From a virus: a DNA stretch of 23,553 nt. The position numbers were made by a program, and so were the translations under genes. Where the stretch lies: the IMG/VR virus record IMGVR_UViG_3300037963_000712, positions 1 to 23,553 of that record, one strand, 5' to 3'. Each line of letters starts with the position of its first letter. Position 1 is the stretch's first letter. Positions 1-20,650 of this stretch are shown piece after piece. Below the pieces are notes generated by a model, which saw nothing but the letters and a program-made list of their open reading frames with translations, had not been told where the DNA came from and did not search any database.

Positions 1-185
1 GTATTGAAATTAAAAGCCATACATACACCAAGTGCTTCATCATATTTAAAACCATACGCTTCACAAGTTTGTTTATTAGCTAATAAATCTGAATTTGTAC
101 CATCAGTAAAAAATACTTGTCCTGAAGGTGCTATATTTTCAGGTCTTAATGTATATCCATTTAATATTTGATTTGCTTTTGCCAT
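1..185 (-). CDS. Virion/tail-associated protein, 5' part only (runs off window)
   Basis: The minus-strand frame opens with ATG at 185-183 and stays open to the window edge for 61 codons, so the C-terminus is missing. Its ATG shares one base with the TAA of the preceding 922-residue tail gene (TAATG), which implies translational coupling. The visible part begins MAKANQILNGYTLRPENIAP and includes a two-Cys stretch around residues 42-57 (TCEAYGFKYDEALGVC). I do not recognise the family. Its position directly after two large tail genes suggests a tail-tip or fibre-related protein, which is inference only. Confidence 0.6.
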   Translation of the reverse strand, partial: MAKANQILNGYTLRPENIAPSGQVFFTDGTNSDLLANKQTCEAYGFKYDEALGVCMAFNFN

Positions 186-5843: not shown

Positions 5844-6331
5844 TTTCCTATAAATGTATCAGTCATTGGTATATCACAAGTTTGGAAGCTATTTTGTACT
5901 GTTATACCTAAATTAAATACCCATCCTGTTACTGATTGATCAAATCGTTCTTTAAATGGTTCTAACGTATAATCACCTTCTGCAAAATATACAGGTGCAT
6001 TAATATCTAATGCTAATTGTGCTTGCCATTTAGAATTACTTAATATACCTATAATATCTATACATATTTGTAATACATCACTATATACTTCTTGTTCATT
6101 ACTACCATCAGGTTCTACTAAGTCCATTATAAACACTTGAAAGTTATATACTAATTCAGTTCTTCTTGTTGTTACATTTACAGGGTTTAGGTGCATTAAT
6201 GGATATAGTGTATTCTTTTCTAAATCTATATCAAATATATCACCTACTGTTGTTGTGCTTATTTGTAAATGATTTGTACCTAAATTTTTTAGTGTATCTA
6301 TTACGTTGTTATACGTTTTATTATTGACCAT
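5840..6331 (-). CDS. Neck/tail-terminator-like phage protein (163 aa)
   Basis: A protein of 163 residues starting MVNNKTYNNVIDTLKNLGTN. The pattern is an N-terminal helix, then DIFDIDLEKNTLYPLMHLNP (about 31-50), then a strand-rich part with YNFQVFIMDLVEP (about 62-74) and a helix QEVYSDVLQICIDIIGIL (about 80-97). An alpha/beta protein of about 160 residues just before a gp10-like protein is what one expects of a tail-terminator or head-closure protein. It belongs to a type I remember from Bacteroidota phages but cannot name. Its start overlaps the end of the -1 frame extension of the upstream chaperone-like gene by 11 bases. Confidence 0.5.
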   Translation of the reverse strand: MVNNKTYNNVIDTLKNLGTNHLQISTTTVGDIFDIDLEKNTLYPLMHLNPVNVTTRRTELVYNFQVFIMDLVEPDGSNEQEVYSDVLQICIDIIGILSNSKWQAQLALDINAPVYFAEGDYTLEPFKERFDQSVTGWVFNLGITVQNSFQTCDIPMTDTFIGK

Positions 6332-6575
6332 TTATTTTTACTTTTGTTGTACTTTCTAAATCTGTTTCATAACTAAGCCAAGTAAATGCTTCTAATAAAT
6401 TTAGTTTAGTTATTGTTTCTAATTTACTTATATCTCCATTACACAATCTATACATTATGCCAAAGTAACCCCATTTTTCTGCAAAACTTTGTCCTTTATC
6501 TCTTTCTCCATTTGTGTCATAGCTTGCGTTAAATATAATGGCAAAATCTTTAGTAATTCGCTTCCTAAATGATAA
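6321..6575 (-). CDS. -1 frame extension of the tail-chaperone-like gene (GT-type product)
   Basis: Starting right after a phased T TTT TTT heptamer in the 213-residue gene, the -1 frame stays open for 84 codons and stops at 6321-6323, past the frame-0 stop at 6455. It includes FAEKWGYFGIMYRLCNGDIS and LNLLEAFTWLSYETDL, which read like a real folded domain. With residues 1-174 of frame 0 it would give a 258-residue fusion. By my hand count, G or C at codon position 3 is about 10 of 41 in the -1 frame versus 14 of 39 in frame 0 over the overlap, so the -1 frame looks at least as coding. This matches the G/GT arrangement of tail assembly chaperones. An alternative start is the ATG at 6455 (TAATG with the frame-0 stop), giving 44 residues. 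Confidence 0.6.
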   Translation of the reverse strand, partial: LSFRKRITKDFAIIFNASYDTNGERDKGQSFAEKWGYFGIMYRLCNGDISKLETITKLNLLEAFTWLSYETDLESTTKVKINGQ

Positions 6576-7096
6576 AAAAAAACCATAGCACCTTGTACAT
6601 CTTCTGCTTTCATCTTCTTAAACAATTCTGCCCTGACATCAATATTACCACTATATGCTTCAATACTATACTTATCATTTCTTTGTTCTACTATTGGTCT
6701 ATATAAAACTGCCATAATTTGTGGCATAAATTTCTCTACACCTAATTTTATGTAATGTTCTATATCTGCCCATTCACCTAATGTTATATCTTCTAAATTA
6801 GGATGAAAACCAAACTTTTGATCCTCTACCTTAATTATTCTTCTTAACTTGCTTTTAGATAGTTTTTGTAATTCGCTTAGTTTTGTAAGTATTAATGCAA
6901 CATCTTGTATTCCTAACTCATTTATTAACTTTTTAGGTATATCTGATAATGCACTTATTGTTTCTAATGCTTCTTTACTTCTACTACCTTTATGTAAATT
7001 TACTAACTTAACCCATTTTTCAACTGTAACATCTGACCAGCTTTTTATTAAGTTAAAGGTTTTTACCTTACCTTTTTTCCTAACATTTATTTTCAT
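6455..7096 (-). CDS. Tail assembly chaperone-like protein (G-type product)
   Basis: A mostly helical, Lys/Leu-rich protein of 213 residues starting MKINVRKKGKVKTFNLIKSW. It contains a W-x-D-V-T-V-E-K-W-V motif early on and DITLGEWADIEHYIKLGVEK in the middle (about 103-122), a layout I associate with tail assembly chaperone or related helical assembly proteins of Bacteroidota phages. Towards the end, AMVFFYHLG (about 170-178) is encoded across a run of nine T residues that allows -1 slippage. Such chaperones coat the tape-measure protein during tail assembly and are absent from virions. No tape-measure gene is visible in this window, so the name remains provisional. Confidence 0.5.
   Translation of the reverse strand: MKINVRKKGKVKTFNLIKSWSDVTVEKWVKLVNLHKGSRSKEALETISALSDIPKKLINELGIQDVALILTKLSELQKLSKSKLRRIIKVEDQKFGFHPNLEDITLGEWADIEHYIKLGVEKFMPQIMAVLYRPIVEQRNDKYSIEAYSGNIDVRAELFKKMKAEDVQGAMVFFYHLGSELLKILPLYLTQAMTQMEKEIKDKVLQKNGVTLA
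6575..6581 (-). promoter_or_regulatory. Probable -1 programmed frameshift site, T TTT TTT
   Basis: On the coding strand the frame-0 codons are GTT TTT TTT TAT. The heptamer T TTT TTT is therefore exactly phased as X XXY YYZ, the canonical -1 slippery form. It lies inside a run of nine T residues (6574-6582). The -1 frame after it is open for 84 codons and the frame-0 stop is 40 codons away. I did not find an obvious stem-loop directly downstream by eye. Confidence 0.55.
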
Positions 7097-7126: not shown

Positions 7127-8329
7127 TTACTGTACAAAATACTTACCATAATTAGGATTATCTAAATGGTAAATTACGTTGTATCTTATAGCATCAATAG
7201 CATGATTGTAAGCATCTACATATAGTTTAGAACCTTTATCTGCATATACATAGTTGTTAAGTTCTTTTGCAATATTAGTTGCTTCAGGGCATACAACTAA
7301 TTCATAATCTTGCATTCTAGTTATACCACTTTCTATTGTACCTTTTTTTACAGGTTTTATATTTACTCCTAAGTGTTTTAAATCTTCTATTAATCTAGGT
7401 TCTGCGCTATCAGCTATAATAAGTTTATTATCTACTTTATCTAATACTATCTTAGCCAATTCATGTGACTTTAAACCATTCTTGTATATATGTTCTTTAA
7501 CATACATTTTCTTTTTCTTTTTATCAATAGCTACTTCTATTAAACTATCAGGATCAACACTAAATCCAAAGTCCATACCACAAGATGTTTGTAATCCATC
7601 AGGATTAAATTGTCCTATTGTCCAATTATCAAACACTACACCTTCTGCTTTATCAAGCCAACCACCAAGTATTTTGTGTTTATACTTTTTTATATTACGT
7701 TCTTTTATAGTCTTAATACGCTCTAGGAAGCTCTTAGAGAGGTTTTCTTTATTGTCTAGGTATGTACTATGGATATAACATACATTGTCTTTAACGCCAT
7801 TAAAACCAGCTTCTACACCTTTATCTTGAAAAAATCTATTGTATATCCAATGTTCTTTAGTAACAGGATTAAGTATTAGTATAATTCTATTTTGCACATT
7901 TTTCTCTCTAATACTTAAATCAATAGTATCAAATATATCTTCATCAATTAGTTCTTCTGCTTCATCTAATACCCAACAAGATATTCCTTGTAATGATTTT
8001 AAACTTGCAGTTTGGTTACCTGCTGATGTTTTAATACCTCTAAATAGTATATCAGATTTATTACTTAGATTTAATACTTCTGCTTTGTTTATACTAAATA
8101 TATTTTCAAAACCTAGTAATGTTATTTTTTCTAAAAATTCAGGTATAATAGATAAATGTGCTGATACCATTGTATATCTTGTAAACAATACCCTAATGTT
8201 TTTACTCATTGTGAGTAATGTTAGAAATACTGTTACTGCAAATGATTTACCTGATCCTCTACCACCTGTTATTATATAATAACGTGCATCAGAATTAAAT
8301 AGTAATTTATATTTATTGTTTAGTTTCAG
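7127..8329 (-). CDS. terL: Terminase large subunit (DNA-packaging ATPase/nuclease), non-ATG start
   Basis: Packaging motor protein of the Terminase_3 (PBSX-like) type. From the first in-frame ATG (8209) the protein would lack Walker A, yet the frame stays open upstream and encodes IITGGRGSGKSFAV. The only plausible initiator before the in-frame TAG at 8335-8333 is CTG at 8329-8327, giving 400 residues, the normal family length. In that numbering Walker A is at 22-29, Walker B is WVLDEAEEL with the catalytic Glu, and the coupling region is ILNP. The C-terminal RNase H-like nuclease carries acidic residues in CGMDFGFSVDPDS, LIIADSAEPR and YNHAIDAIRY. The CTG lies 17 bases inside the end of terS. 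A +1 frameshift from terS near CAA TAA, or a sequence error, are alternatives to a CTG start. Confidence 0.85.
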   Translation of the reverse strand: MKLNNKYKLLFNSDARYYIITGGRGSGKSFAVTVFLTLLTMSKNIRVLFTRYTMVSAHLSIIPEFLEKITLLGFENIFSINKAEVLNLSNKSDILFRGIKTSAGNQTASLKSLQGISCWVLDEAEELIDEDIFDTIDLSIREKNVQNRIILILNPVTKEHWIYNRFFQDKGVEAGFNGVKDNVCYIHSTYLDNKENLSKSFLERIKTIKERNIKKYKHKILGGWLDKAEGVVFDNWTIGQFNPDGLQTSCGMDFGFSVDPDSLIEVAIDKKKKKMYVKEHIYKNGLKSHELAKIVLDKVDNKLIIADSAEPRLIEDLKHLGVNIKPVKKGTIESGITRMQDYELVVCPEATNIAKELNNYVYADKGSKLYVDAYNHAIDAIRYNVIYHLDNPNYGKYFVQ

Positions 8330-18275: not shown

Positions 18276-20429
18276 TTATCTCTTTTTAATAAAACCTTTA
18301 TTTTTCATTCTTTTTGGTGGCTTTGCTACTTTTACATTATTTTTCTTTGCAGTAAACCCTTCACTTCTTGCTTTAGTATAACCTATTATATCTGCATCTT
18401 CTATTTTAGTTGTTTTAGATACACCTAATGTAGTTTTGTATATTTGTCTTAGCCAAAAATGATGGCAATTACCACCGCCTTTATAAAGCCATATAGAATA
18501 AGTATCTGCACCACCTTTACCCCAACCTTTATTTACAGGCATTTTTGACATTCTAATAATATCTTCTTTACGATACACTTTTTTTGCACCCATCATTTGT
18601 CTGCAAAAATCTCTTTTTTTACCTGACTTTCTAGTTAAAAATTCATCTTCAGCATATACATAACGTACTCTATAATAATCGTATGTTTTTTTAGATATAC
18701 CATCTTGTTCTGACTTTCTACTTGGTAATGCTTTACCTGTACTTGCTAATTGTATTTTTTCATCTACTAAATCATTTAGCATATTTTCAAAATCAAATTC
18801 AGCGTGTTCATCACCTACTTTTTCTTCATGTATCAATTCACAATCTTCAGGTATATCTTCTCCAAATTCTTCTATAAATTTTGTTAATTCTAAATTTTCT
18901 TTTTCTGCTTTTATAGGTACACAATTAGGTACTTCTCTACCATCTTTAATTTTTGTACCTATTGCTTCATATCCTGGCTGACATGGATTAGGTGTAATAA
19001 ATTCTTCTTTACAATTACAATCTAAATTAGTTATTTGTTCATGATCTTTACATGGCATATAAACTGTTTTACCATCTAATGTGTGTTCATGATAACCCTT
19101 ACACCCTAATCTTTTTGCTTCTGCTTCTGCTTCTTCTTTTGTATCAAATAAAGGTAAATCTATTTCACCATCTTTACCTTCTGTTACCATACTACCTACT
19201 TTTGCAAAATCTTCTCTTACATTTACTTCTTCATTTAATGGTGGTAAACCCATTTCTTCTCTTAGTTCATCTTCTGTTAAAACACCTTTTAAATCTTCTG
19301 ATGTAAATTGTACTGTAATAGGTTTGAGTTGTACAAAACTAATAGGCATATCCATATTATTAACTCTAAACAGTTTTCTAAGCACCTTAATTATGTGATT
19401 TTGATATGGTTTACATACTGTATTTAAGTAATAATTAGCAGCACTATTAAGTTCATCTACATTACTACCTAAACCTGTTTCGTTCTTAATACCCATAAGC
19501 ATTGGTGATGTTACTCTATGTGCGGTGAGTATGTTTTGTACTAATAACTCTTGTAAAGCTAAATATTGCTTATCTGCATTACTTACTGCAATAGGTGTAA
19601 TTTCAGGTACTCTATTTCTATCTTCACTAAACGTTAGTACAAATCTACCTGAACTTTCACTACCTGTAAATTTTTCTTTTAAACTATTCTCTATTTGAAA
19701 ACGTTCTTCTTGTGTAGGTACACCATTCGCAAAAGATATAAAATAAGAACCACTAAACCCATTAGATATATTATTAAGGTGATATTCTGATACTTTTTGA
19801 TCTATTAAACTCCAATTATTACCTGCTAAATAATCAGGTGTAAAATAACTATTCATATTAGGTGAATAAAGACCTGTATAAAGTATTTGGTTTGCTGATG
19901 TTCTATCATTTACATTAAATGCTGGTACTCTATAAGGTTTGTTTATTCTTGTATTACTCCAATCTGCACTTACATAATATGCACATACTTTACCCATAGC
20001 ATCAGGTTTTTCTGCTCTAATTTTTTCAACAGGTATATGATATATTTCTGCTATTTGTGTTCTATCTTTACTCCATATAATATTTAAAGCAAATGCACCT
20101 TGTAATTTAAAATCAAAAGATACCTTTTTAATTAATTCATGTAAAGTTTCATTAGAATTAGGATTAGCCATAAATTGCTTTAGCTTTACCATAGCATCTA
20201 AATTACGATCATCTTCATCATCTATTACTATATCTTCACCTGCAATTAATTCGCTTGTAGCATTTATTATAGCTGCATTAGTAGAACTGTTGTAGTACAA
20301 ATCAATCAAAAATTGTGGGTATAAATTTCTCCAATTTTCAGTACCATATTCTATATAATCTTTACCACGAACTTCTTGTACTTGTGGTGCAGTTTGTGCT
20401 GATAAATCAATATTAATAATTTCTTTCAT
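18276..20429 (-). CDS. Portal protein with a Cys-rich C-terminal extension
   Basis: A protein of 717 residues. The first 400 residues show the portal pattern: WRNLYPQFLIDLYYNSSTNA, AGEDIVIDD, then FALNIIWSKDRTQIAEIYHI, and the crown/stem helices LQELLVQNILTAHRVTSPML. From about 430 comes an extension with an acidic part containing CKGYHEHTLDGKTVYMPC and DCNCKEE, then a 140-residue domain near the end (YDYYRVRYVYAEDEFLTRKS, GGGNCHHFWLRQIY, from about 575). That last domain is not part of standard portals; its role is unknown to me. I chose ATG at 20429, two bases after the previous stop, because the TTG at 20450 lies within the preceding gene. Confidence 0.85.
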   Translation of the reverse strand: MKEIINIDLSAQTAPQVQEVRGKDYIEYGTENWRNLYPQFLIDLYYNSSTNAAIINATSELIAGEDIVIDDEDDRNLDAMVKLKQFMANPNSNETLHELIKKVSFDFKLQGAFALNIIWSKDRTQIAEIYHIPVEKIRAEKPDAMGKVCAYYVSADWSNTRINKPYRVPAFNVNDRTSANQILYTGLYSPNMNSYFTPDYLAGNNWSLIDQKVSEYHLNNISNGFSGSYFISFANGVPTQEERFQIENSLKEKFTGSESSGRFVLTFSEDRNRVPEITPIAVSNADKQYLALQELLVQNILTAHRVTSPMLMGIKNETGLGSNVDELNSAANYYLNTVCKPYQNHIIKVLRKLFRVNNMDMPISFVQLKPITVQFTSEDLKGVLTEDELREEMGLPPLNEEVNVREDFAKVGSMVTEGKDGEIDLPLFDTKEEAEAEAKRLGCKGYHEHTLDGKTVYMPCKDHEQITNLDCNCKEEFITPNPCQPGYEAIGTKIKDGREVPNCVPIKAEKENLELTKFIEEFGEDIPEDCELIHEEKVGDEHAEFDFENMLNDLVDEKIQLASTGKALPSRKSEQDGISKKTYDYYRVRYVYAEDEFLTRKSGKKRDFCRQMMGAKKVYRKEDIIRMSKMPVNKGWGKGGADTYSIWLYKGGGNCHHFWLRQIYKTTLGVSKTTKIEDADIIGYTKARSEGFTAKKNNVKVAKPPKRMKNKGFIKKR

Positions 20430-20431
20430 AA

Positions 20432-20650
20432 TTAATCTTCTTGTGTCCAATCAGGACTGTTAAGTATTTGCATTATACCATCATAATCATATAATGTTTT
20501 ACCTTCTAAAAATCTTGGTGTATCACCTTCAAATTTAAGTAAAAATTTTGTATTTGAGTTGTTATACCTAATAGTGTTTGCTGATGTTTCTAATACTTCA
20601 TCAAAATTTACACTATCTAATTCTTCTGTATTTAATATTGTATAATTCAT
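20432..20650 (-). CDS. Small phage protein before the portal gene (72 aa)
   Basis: Acidic and compact: MNYTILNTEELDSVNFDEVL, then a strand region (FLLKFEGDTPRFLEGKTLYD) and an acidic end (NSPDWTQED). It sits 3 bases after the LamG-like gene and 2 bases before the portal. It may be a virion or assembly accessory protein. No recognised domain; the regular alternation of charged and hydrophobic residues suggests a folded protein. Confidence 0.5.
   Translation of the reverse strand: MNYTILNTEELDSVNFDEVLETSANTIRYNNSNTKFLLKFEGDTPRFLEGKTLYDYDGIMQILNSPDWTQED

Follow-up and report, generated by a model that had tools for sequence, protein, structure and literature searches.

The locus examined here raises two questions: whether a single viral gene yields two nested proteins through a change of reading frame at a run of Ts and, if so, whether it is the ribosome or the RNA polymerase that slips there. 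The stretch of DNA analysed (termed here the window) comprises the first 23,553 nucleotides of virus record IMGVR_UViG_3300037963_000712, which has 29,345 bases in all; the G+C content is 28%.

One gene and two reading frames

Codons 172 to 174 of the 213-residue ORF read GTT TTT TTT and are followed by TAT, which creates a run of nine Ts (T9). An earlier note on this DNA had proposed the heptamer T TTT TTT, in the X XXY YYZ phase, as the slip site; this heptamer is indeed the phased core of the run, so that its position and phase stand, but the run length had been under-read as seven. Beyond TTT TTT the -1 frame encodes 84 residues (LSFRKRITKDFAIIF...TDLESTTKVKINGQ), which yields a fused product of 258 residues; translation thus confirms the extension and both product sizes given in the note. 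The features are listed in Table 1. The tail unique to the short product is less conserved, and the position of its stop drifts among relatives.

Table 1. Coordinates, within the window, of the recoding gene, its slip site and its neighbours
Feature	Position	Strand	Remarks
Frame-0 ORF, short (G-like) product, 213 aa	6455..7096	-	residues 1-174 common to the long product
T9 slip run, GTT TTT TTT T	6574..6582	-	9 or 10 Ts wherever a relative has both domains
T TTT TTT heptamer	6575..6581	-	X XXY YYZ phase; within T9
-1 frame extension (T-like domain), 84 codons	6324..6575	-	stop codon 6323-6321; all-helical by prediction; homologue of the C-terminal region in single-ORF relatives
Frame-0-only tail of the short product	6455..6574	-	residues 175-213 plus stop; overlaps the -1 frame
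Next gene, 163 aa	5840..6331	-	ATG overlaps the -1 frame end, not the frame-0 end
Terminase large subunit	7127..8209	-	upstream neighbour

A first scan, with the frame-0 protein as query, returned 29 loci, 26 of which span the slip site; in all 26 the T9 has the same phase and the -1 frame is open and falls into one length class, and the frame-0 stop drifts among them. Profile scans found more than 500 relatives per query, in metagenomic loci, of which the best 80 per query were fetched. A search for the two domains that made no assumption about a T run recognised both of them in 230 loci, every one of which shows the transition from frame 0 to frame -1 together with at least nine Ts: 215 have T9 in phase 1, 8 have T9 in phase 0 and 7 have ten Ts (T10), and runs of seven or eight are absent from these 230. 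Elsewhere on that strand of the loci, outside the gene, runs of nine or more Ts occur once in 380,051 bases; hence the presence of such a run at one and the same place in 230 of 230 loci goes far beyond chance. Neither stops in the -1 frame nor a broken T run, the findings that the earlier note would have counted against its claim, occur in any relative.

Because homopolymers are prone to error and single-ORF relatives exist, a sequencing or assembly error in a gene that truly occupies one frame might be suspected. However, the same run length recurs in hundreds of independent assemblies and in the isolated phages P12024S and P12024L; two registers and the T10 variant keep an identical frame relation; and frame 0 stays open for 80-150 nt past the run, rather than ending as a random frame would. 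This explanation was rejected as exceedingly improbable, being in practice already refuted by the recurrence of the run in independent assemblies, isolates and variants.

Once sequences 97% alike had been removed, 118 remained, in all of which the -1 frame is open and both frame 0 and frame +1 are closed; in 115 of them the -1 stop and the ATG of the following gene overlap, by 1 to 23 bases. Among 70 members with equal stop distance, the pairwise residue difference is 0.47 in the -1 frame versus 0.55-0.62 in frame 0.

The -1 region could, alternatively, be a small gene of its own that starts at the ATG within TAATG at 6455 and is translated by coupling, without any frameshift. In its favour, sequences whose frame 0 stops late have TAATG or TGATG at that stop (113 of 113 with the commonest spacing), and the annotation of P12024S gp39 treats the region as a separate gene. 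But the conserved -1 residues FFL.FR, F..IF and F..KW are encoded upstream of this ATG, every sequence keeps the -1 frame open as far back as the T run, the frame-0 stop lies about 42 nt ahead of the ATG in about a quarter of them, and the ATG is placed differently in P12024S; moreover, single-ORF relatives have both parts joined, and a Shine-Dalgarno-like site was seen in 3 of 86 sequences only. A separate gene is thus very unlikely and was rejected on the strength of the conserved upstream residues, the open frame and the scarcity of Shine-Dalgarno-like sites. As an observation in its own right, the Met codon of the -1 motif GVMYRL is preceded almost exclusively by GTA, GTG or ATA (window 6455-6459 and relatives), and TAATG or TGATG is therefore present even where frame 0 stopped upstream; the persistence of this pentamer possibly reflects an extra initiation site or a codon constraint.

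The isolated Nonlabens phages P12024S and P12024L carry CTT TTT TTT TAT at the same place and in the same register, with a protein identity of 25-28%; annotation treats the extension in them as a hypothetical ORF of its own. Other homologues, of 259-301 residues, consist of one ORF: those of Flavobacterium phages 23T, 2A and laban6-1, Cellulophaga phage Ingeline, Polaribacter phage Leef, Bacteroides phage BT-TP2 and Mea-Yong924-1 (listed under Microcystis). These single-ORF relatives are of the phrog_25418 type. In hhalign the profile of the fused product matches them along residues 93-241, a span that includes the slip point (Prob 96.8, E 2.6e-10), and the extension alone does so with E 1.1e-4. 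Hence the extension is an old and genuine part of the protein family, and it is the marine clade that is marked by a layout in two frames.

Given the frame transition, the conservation of the run, the coding character of the -1 frame and the homology to uninterrupted relatives, this gene is almost certainly a programmed recoding gene.

Two further observations concern individual relatives. Flavobacterium phage 6H (KC959568, 10352-10927) has a broken single-ORF homologue, in which about 35 bases where the domains join depart from the 23T sequence and the C-terminal domain lies in another frame, unlike the homologues of 23T and 2A, which are intact; this is either a true variant or a sequencing error. 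Contig PAPR01000004.1, binned in an alphaproteobacterial (Pseudooceanicola) metagenome-assembled genome, has the same gene with T9 and represents either a misbinned phage contig or an unexpected host. The relatives as a whole suggest that the window phage is kin to phages of marine flavobacteria.

Polymerase or ribosome

Transcriptional slippage is favoured here, as moderately probable, over -1 ribosomal frameshifting. According to this reading, the majority of transcripts would contain nine Us and be read in frame 0 to yield the 213-residue protein; RNA polymerase, slipping on T9 (where the rU:dA hybrid is uniform), would add one U to some of the transcripts, any other change that sets the -1 frame being equally allowed; and ordinary translation of the extra-U transcripts would produce the 258-residue fusion with its conserved helical C-terminal domain. 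The ratio of short to long product would then be set by T9.

The evidence that bears on this lies in the length of the run, which occurs in three registers at nine to ten Ts: GTT TTT TTT T, CGG/AGG TTT TTT TTT G, and CTT TTT TTT TTC. In the main register the two Ts beyond the heptamer sit in Val/Leu and Trp/Tyr codons. In the second (CGG or AGG, TTT TTT TTT, then GCT or GTT) both of the old flanks are lost, and the run, shifted two bases further downstream, again has nine Ts. In the third (CTT TTT TTT TTC TAC) the last wobble position is C, a change that by itself the ribosome would accept, but the preceding codon is now TTT, which makes a run of ten. On a 118-tip tree built from the upstream part of the protein, parsimony implies about ten register changes, a number that recombination could inflate. 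Because at least nine Ts are kept across all three registers and T7 or T8 is unseen, even though a heptamer needs only seven, polymerase slippage is the preferred reading. The RNA-DNA hybrid of bacterial RNA polymerase spans 9-10 bp, and nine As or Ts suffice for its efficient slippage in vivo (PMC5009743); typical slippage sites are homopolymers of eight or more (PMC3711429). A conserved A/T homopolymer of about nine or more at the frame transition, the mark of transcriptional realignment, is what this gene family displays.

Ribosomal frameshifting on U UUU UUU, in which the Phe tRNAs of the P and A sites would re-pair one base back, is a serious rival, though a somewhat improbable one. It fits the fact that all loci contain a phased X XXY YYZ heptamer (with T or C at the wobble position, every run holds a valid T TTT TTT or T TTT TTC); P2 E+E' slips on the similar T TTT TTG (GGTTTTTTG); and within a set of 52 sequences, all 42 that have Val ahead of the run spell it GTT, versus about 31% GTT generally, as X = T demands. 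The heptamer rule does not account, however, for a run that holds to nine or more Ts in each of three registers, and is silent as to why T TTT TTC is confined to cases in which one more T codon makes up the run. Nor did pseudoknot-free folds of the 37 nt on the upstream side and the 75 nt on the downstream side reveal a stimulatory RNA structure in excess of synonymous shuffles (mean z of -0.18 upstream and -0.23 downstream), a result that at most hints against a ribosomal mechanism; some chaperone frameshift sites lack stimulators. Two points count against the polymerase: amino-acid constraint could explain the two extra Ts of the main register, and all experimentally studied frameshifts of tail chaperones are, to our knowledge, ribosomal. 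Both mechanisms could act together. Of the slippage originally proposed at the heptamer, comparison upholds the site of recoding and the -1 extension, whereas the conservation of nine or more Ts across three registers points more to the polymerase than to the ribosome as the slipping agent.

Around the slip site there is a modest rise in synonymous conservation. One subclade commonly has a short hairpin, AGTGC...GCRYT, that abuts the run on its 5' side (relatives, about 6583-6600) in a terminator-like layout; it is absent from the window and no stronger than in synonymous shuffles.

The balance tips slightly towards a marine phage clade in which polymerase slippage on T9, in place of ribosomal frameshifting, sets the proportion of two tail-assembly-type proteins, and which either split a one-ORF gene or never fused it. 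The group is very widespread at sea, with more than 500 loci in one viral collection, and its C-terminal domain is systematically misannotated or missed. The site has evolved in step with the length of the homopolymer and not with the ribosomal heptamer, and relatives carry the same protein in one ORF, so that both the identity of the slipping machine and the need for a second product are directly testable by setting the cultured P12024S and P12024L against Ingeline or 23T.

Neighbourhood and a possible role in tail assembly

Downstream of the 163-residue gene lie further late genes. A tape-measure-like gene (record positions 27059-28516; phrog_9483 match, E 1e-11) is several genes away, across the ends of the record. 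A near-identical direct repeat of about 120 bases, found at window positions 1-130 and at the record end (L033, ~5925-6046), suggests a circular or permuted genome. Two further ORFs deserve mention: the portal ORF (18276-20450; 724 aa), with a long C-terminal part and a DUF3721 match, is larger than usual portals; and a capsid-like ORF (L033, 213-1112), matching the virion structural proteins of phrog_1623 (E 4e-7), holds ambiguous residues (XXXX) that correspond to an assembly gap in the record.

A role as tail assembly chaperone is plausible but unproven: the nested short and long products might act as a pair in the manner of lambda G and GT. This reading is suggested by the two nested products, the late-gene neighbourhood, the helical domains and a sub-threshold similarity to PF10109 (Phage_TAC_7; tail chaperones E, 41 and 14). 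As in G/GT-type genes, the slip site is near the end of the first ORF and is followed by an open -1 extension conserved in relatives. The gene in the window lacks, however, the usual G/GT position, after the major tail protein and immediately before the tape-measure gene; the Ingeline homologue stands two genes upstream of its tape-measure gene. Thus the layout that the earlier note likened to G/GT is retained, but membership of a known chaperone family is not supported by a significant match or by an adjacent tape-measure gene.

The alignment with chaperone families that the note had called for failed to place the protein. PF10109 is the commonest weak Pfam match (7 of 53 homologues, best E 0.012), all scores staying below its curated cut-off of 25 bits, and hhalign of the family profile with P2 gpE alone gave no match. 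Against Pfam the window protein itself matched nothing beyond NOP5NT (E 0.09), and searches of Pfam, NCBIfam, PHROGs and PDB sequences produced no named function. AlphaFold models are weak (pLDDT 57 and 59); with these as queries, solved structures gave no usable match, and predicted viral proteins returned uncharacterised relatives only.

Comparison with known systems

One comparison is with the single-ORF relatives of phrog_25418, which have the same two domains in the same order, with homology over both, but which undergo no frame change and encode the full-length protein only.

Phage lambda G/GT, the frameshifted tail assembly chaperones, is the textbook case of ribosomal recoding, and such chaperones were reportedly surveyed by Xu et al. 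in 2004. The gene described here shares with lambda the derivation from one late gene of a short product and, by a -1 frameshift, a long one, a slip near the end of the first ORF, a helical extension and a tape-measure gene in the genome. It differs in having no detectable sequence relation to G/GT, a longer first ORF, a T9 homopolymer in place of GGGAAAG, and a position several genes from the tape-measure gene. Phage P2 E/E+E' (PF10109) is similar in its T-rich slip site, its -1 shift and its two products; it is dissimilar in that its slip site is T6G, its first ORF is 91 residues long and scores well on PF10109, and its tape-measure gene is directly downstream of the chaperone gene.

The literature searched contained no tail assembly gene that uses polymerase slippage. 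Among genes that do rely on slippage of RNA polymerase are Thermus dnaX, Shigella mxiE and spa13, and some IS transposases. Like the gene in the window, these have a run of nine or ten As or Ts within the coding sequence and two length variants. They have no need of an RNA stimulator, and here no structure stronger than in synonymous shuffles was detected. They are, however, cellular or IS genes, whereas here the run is found within a phage gene of putative tail type.
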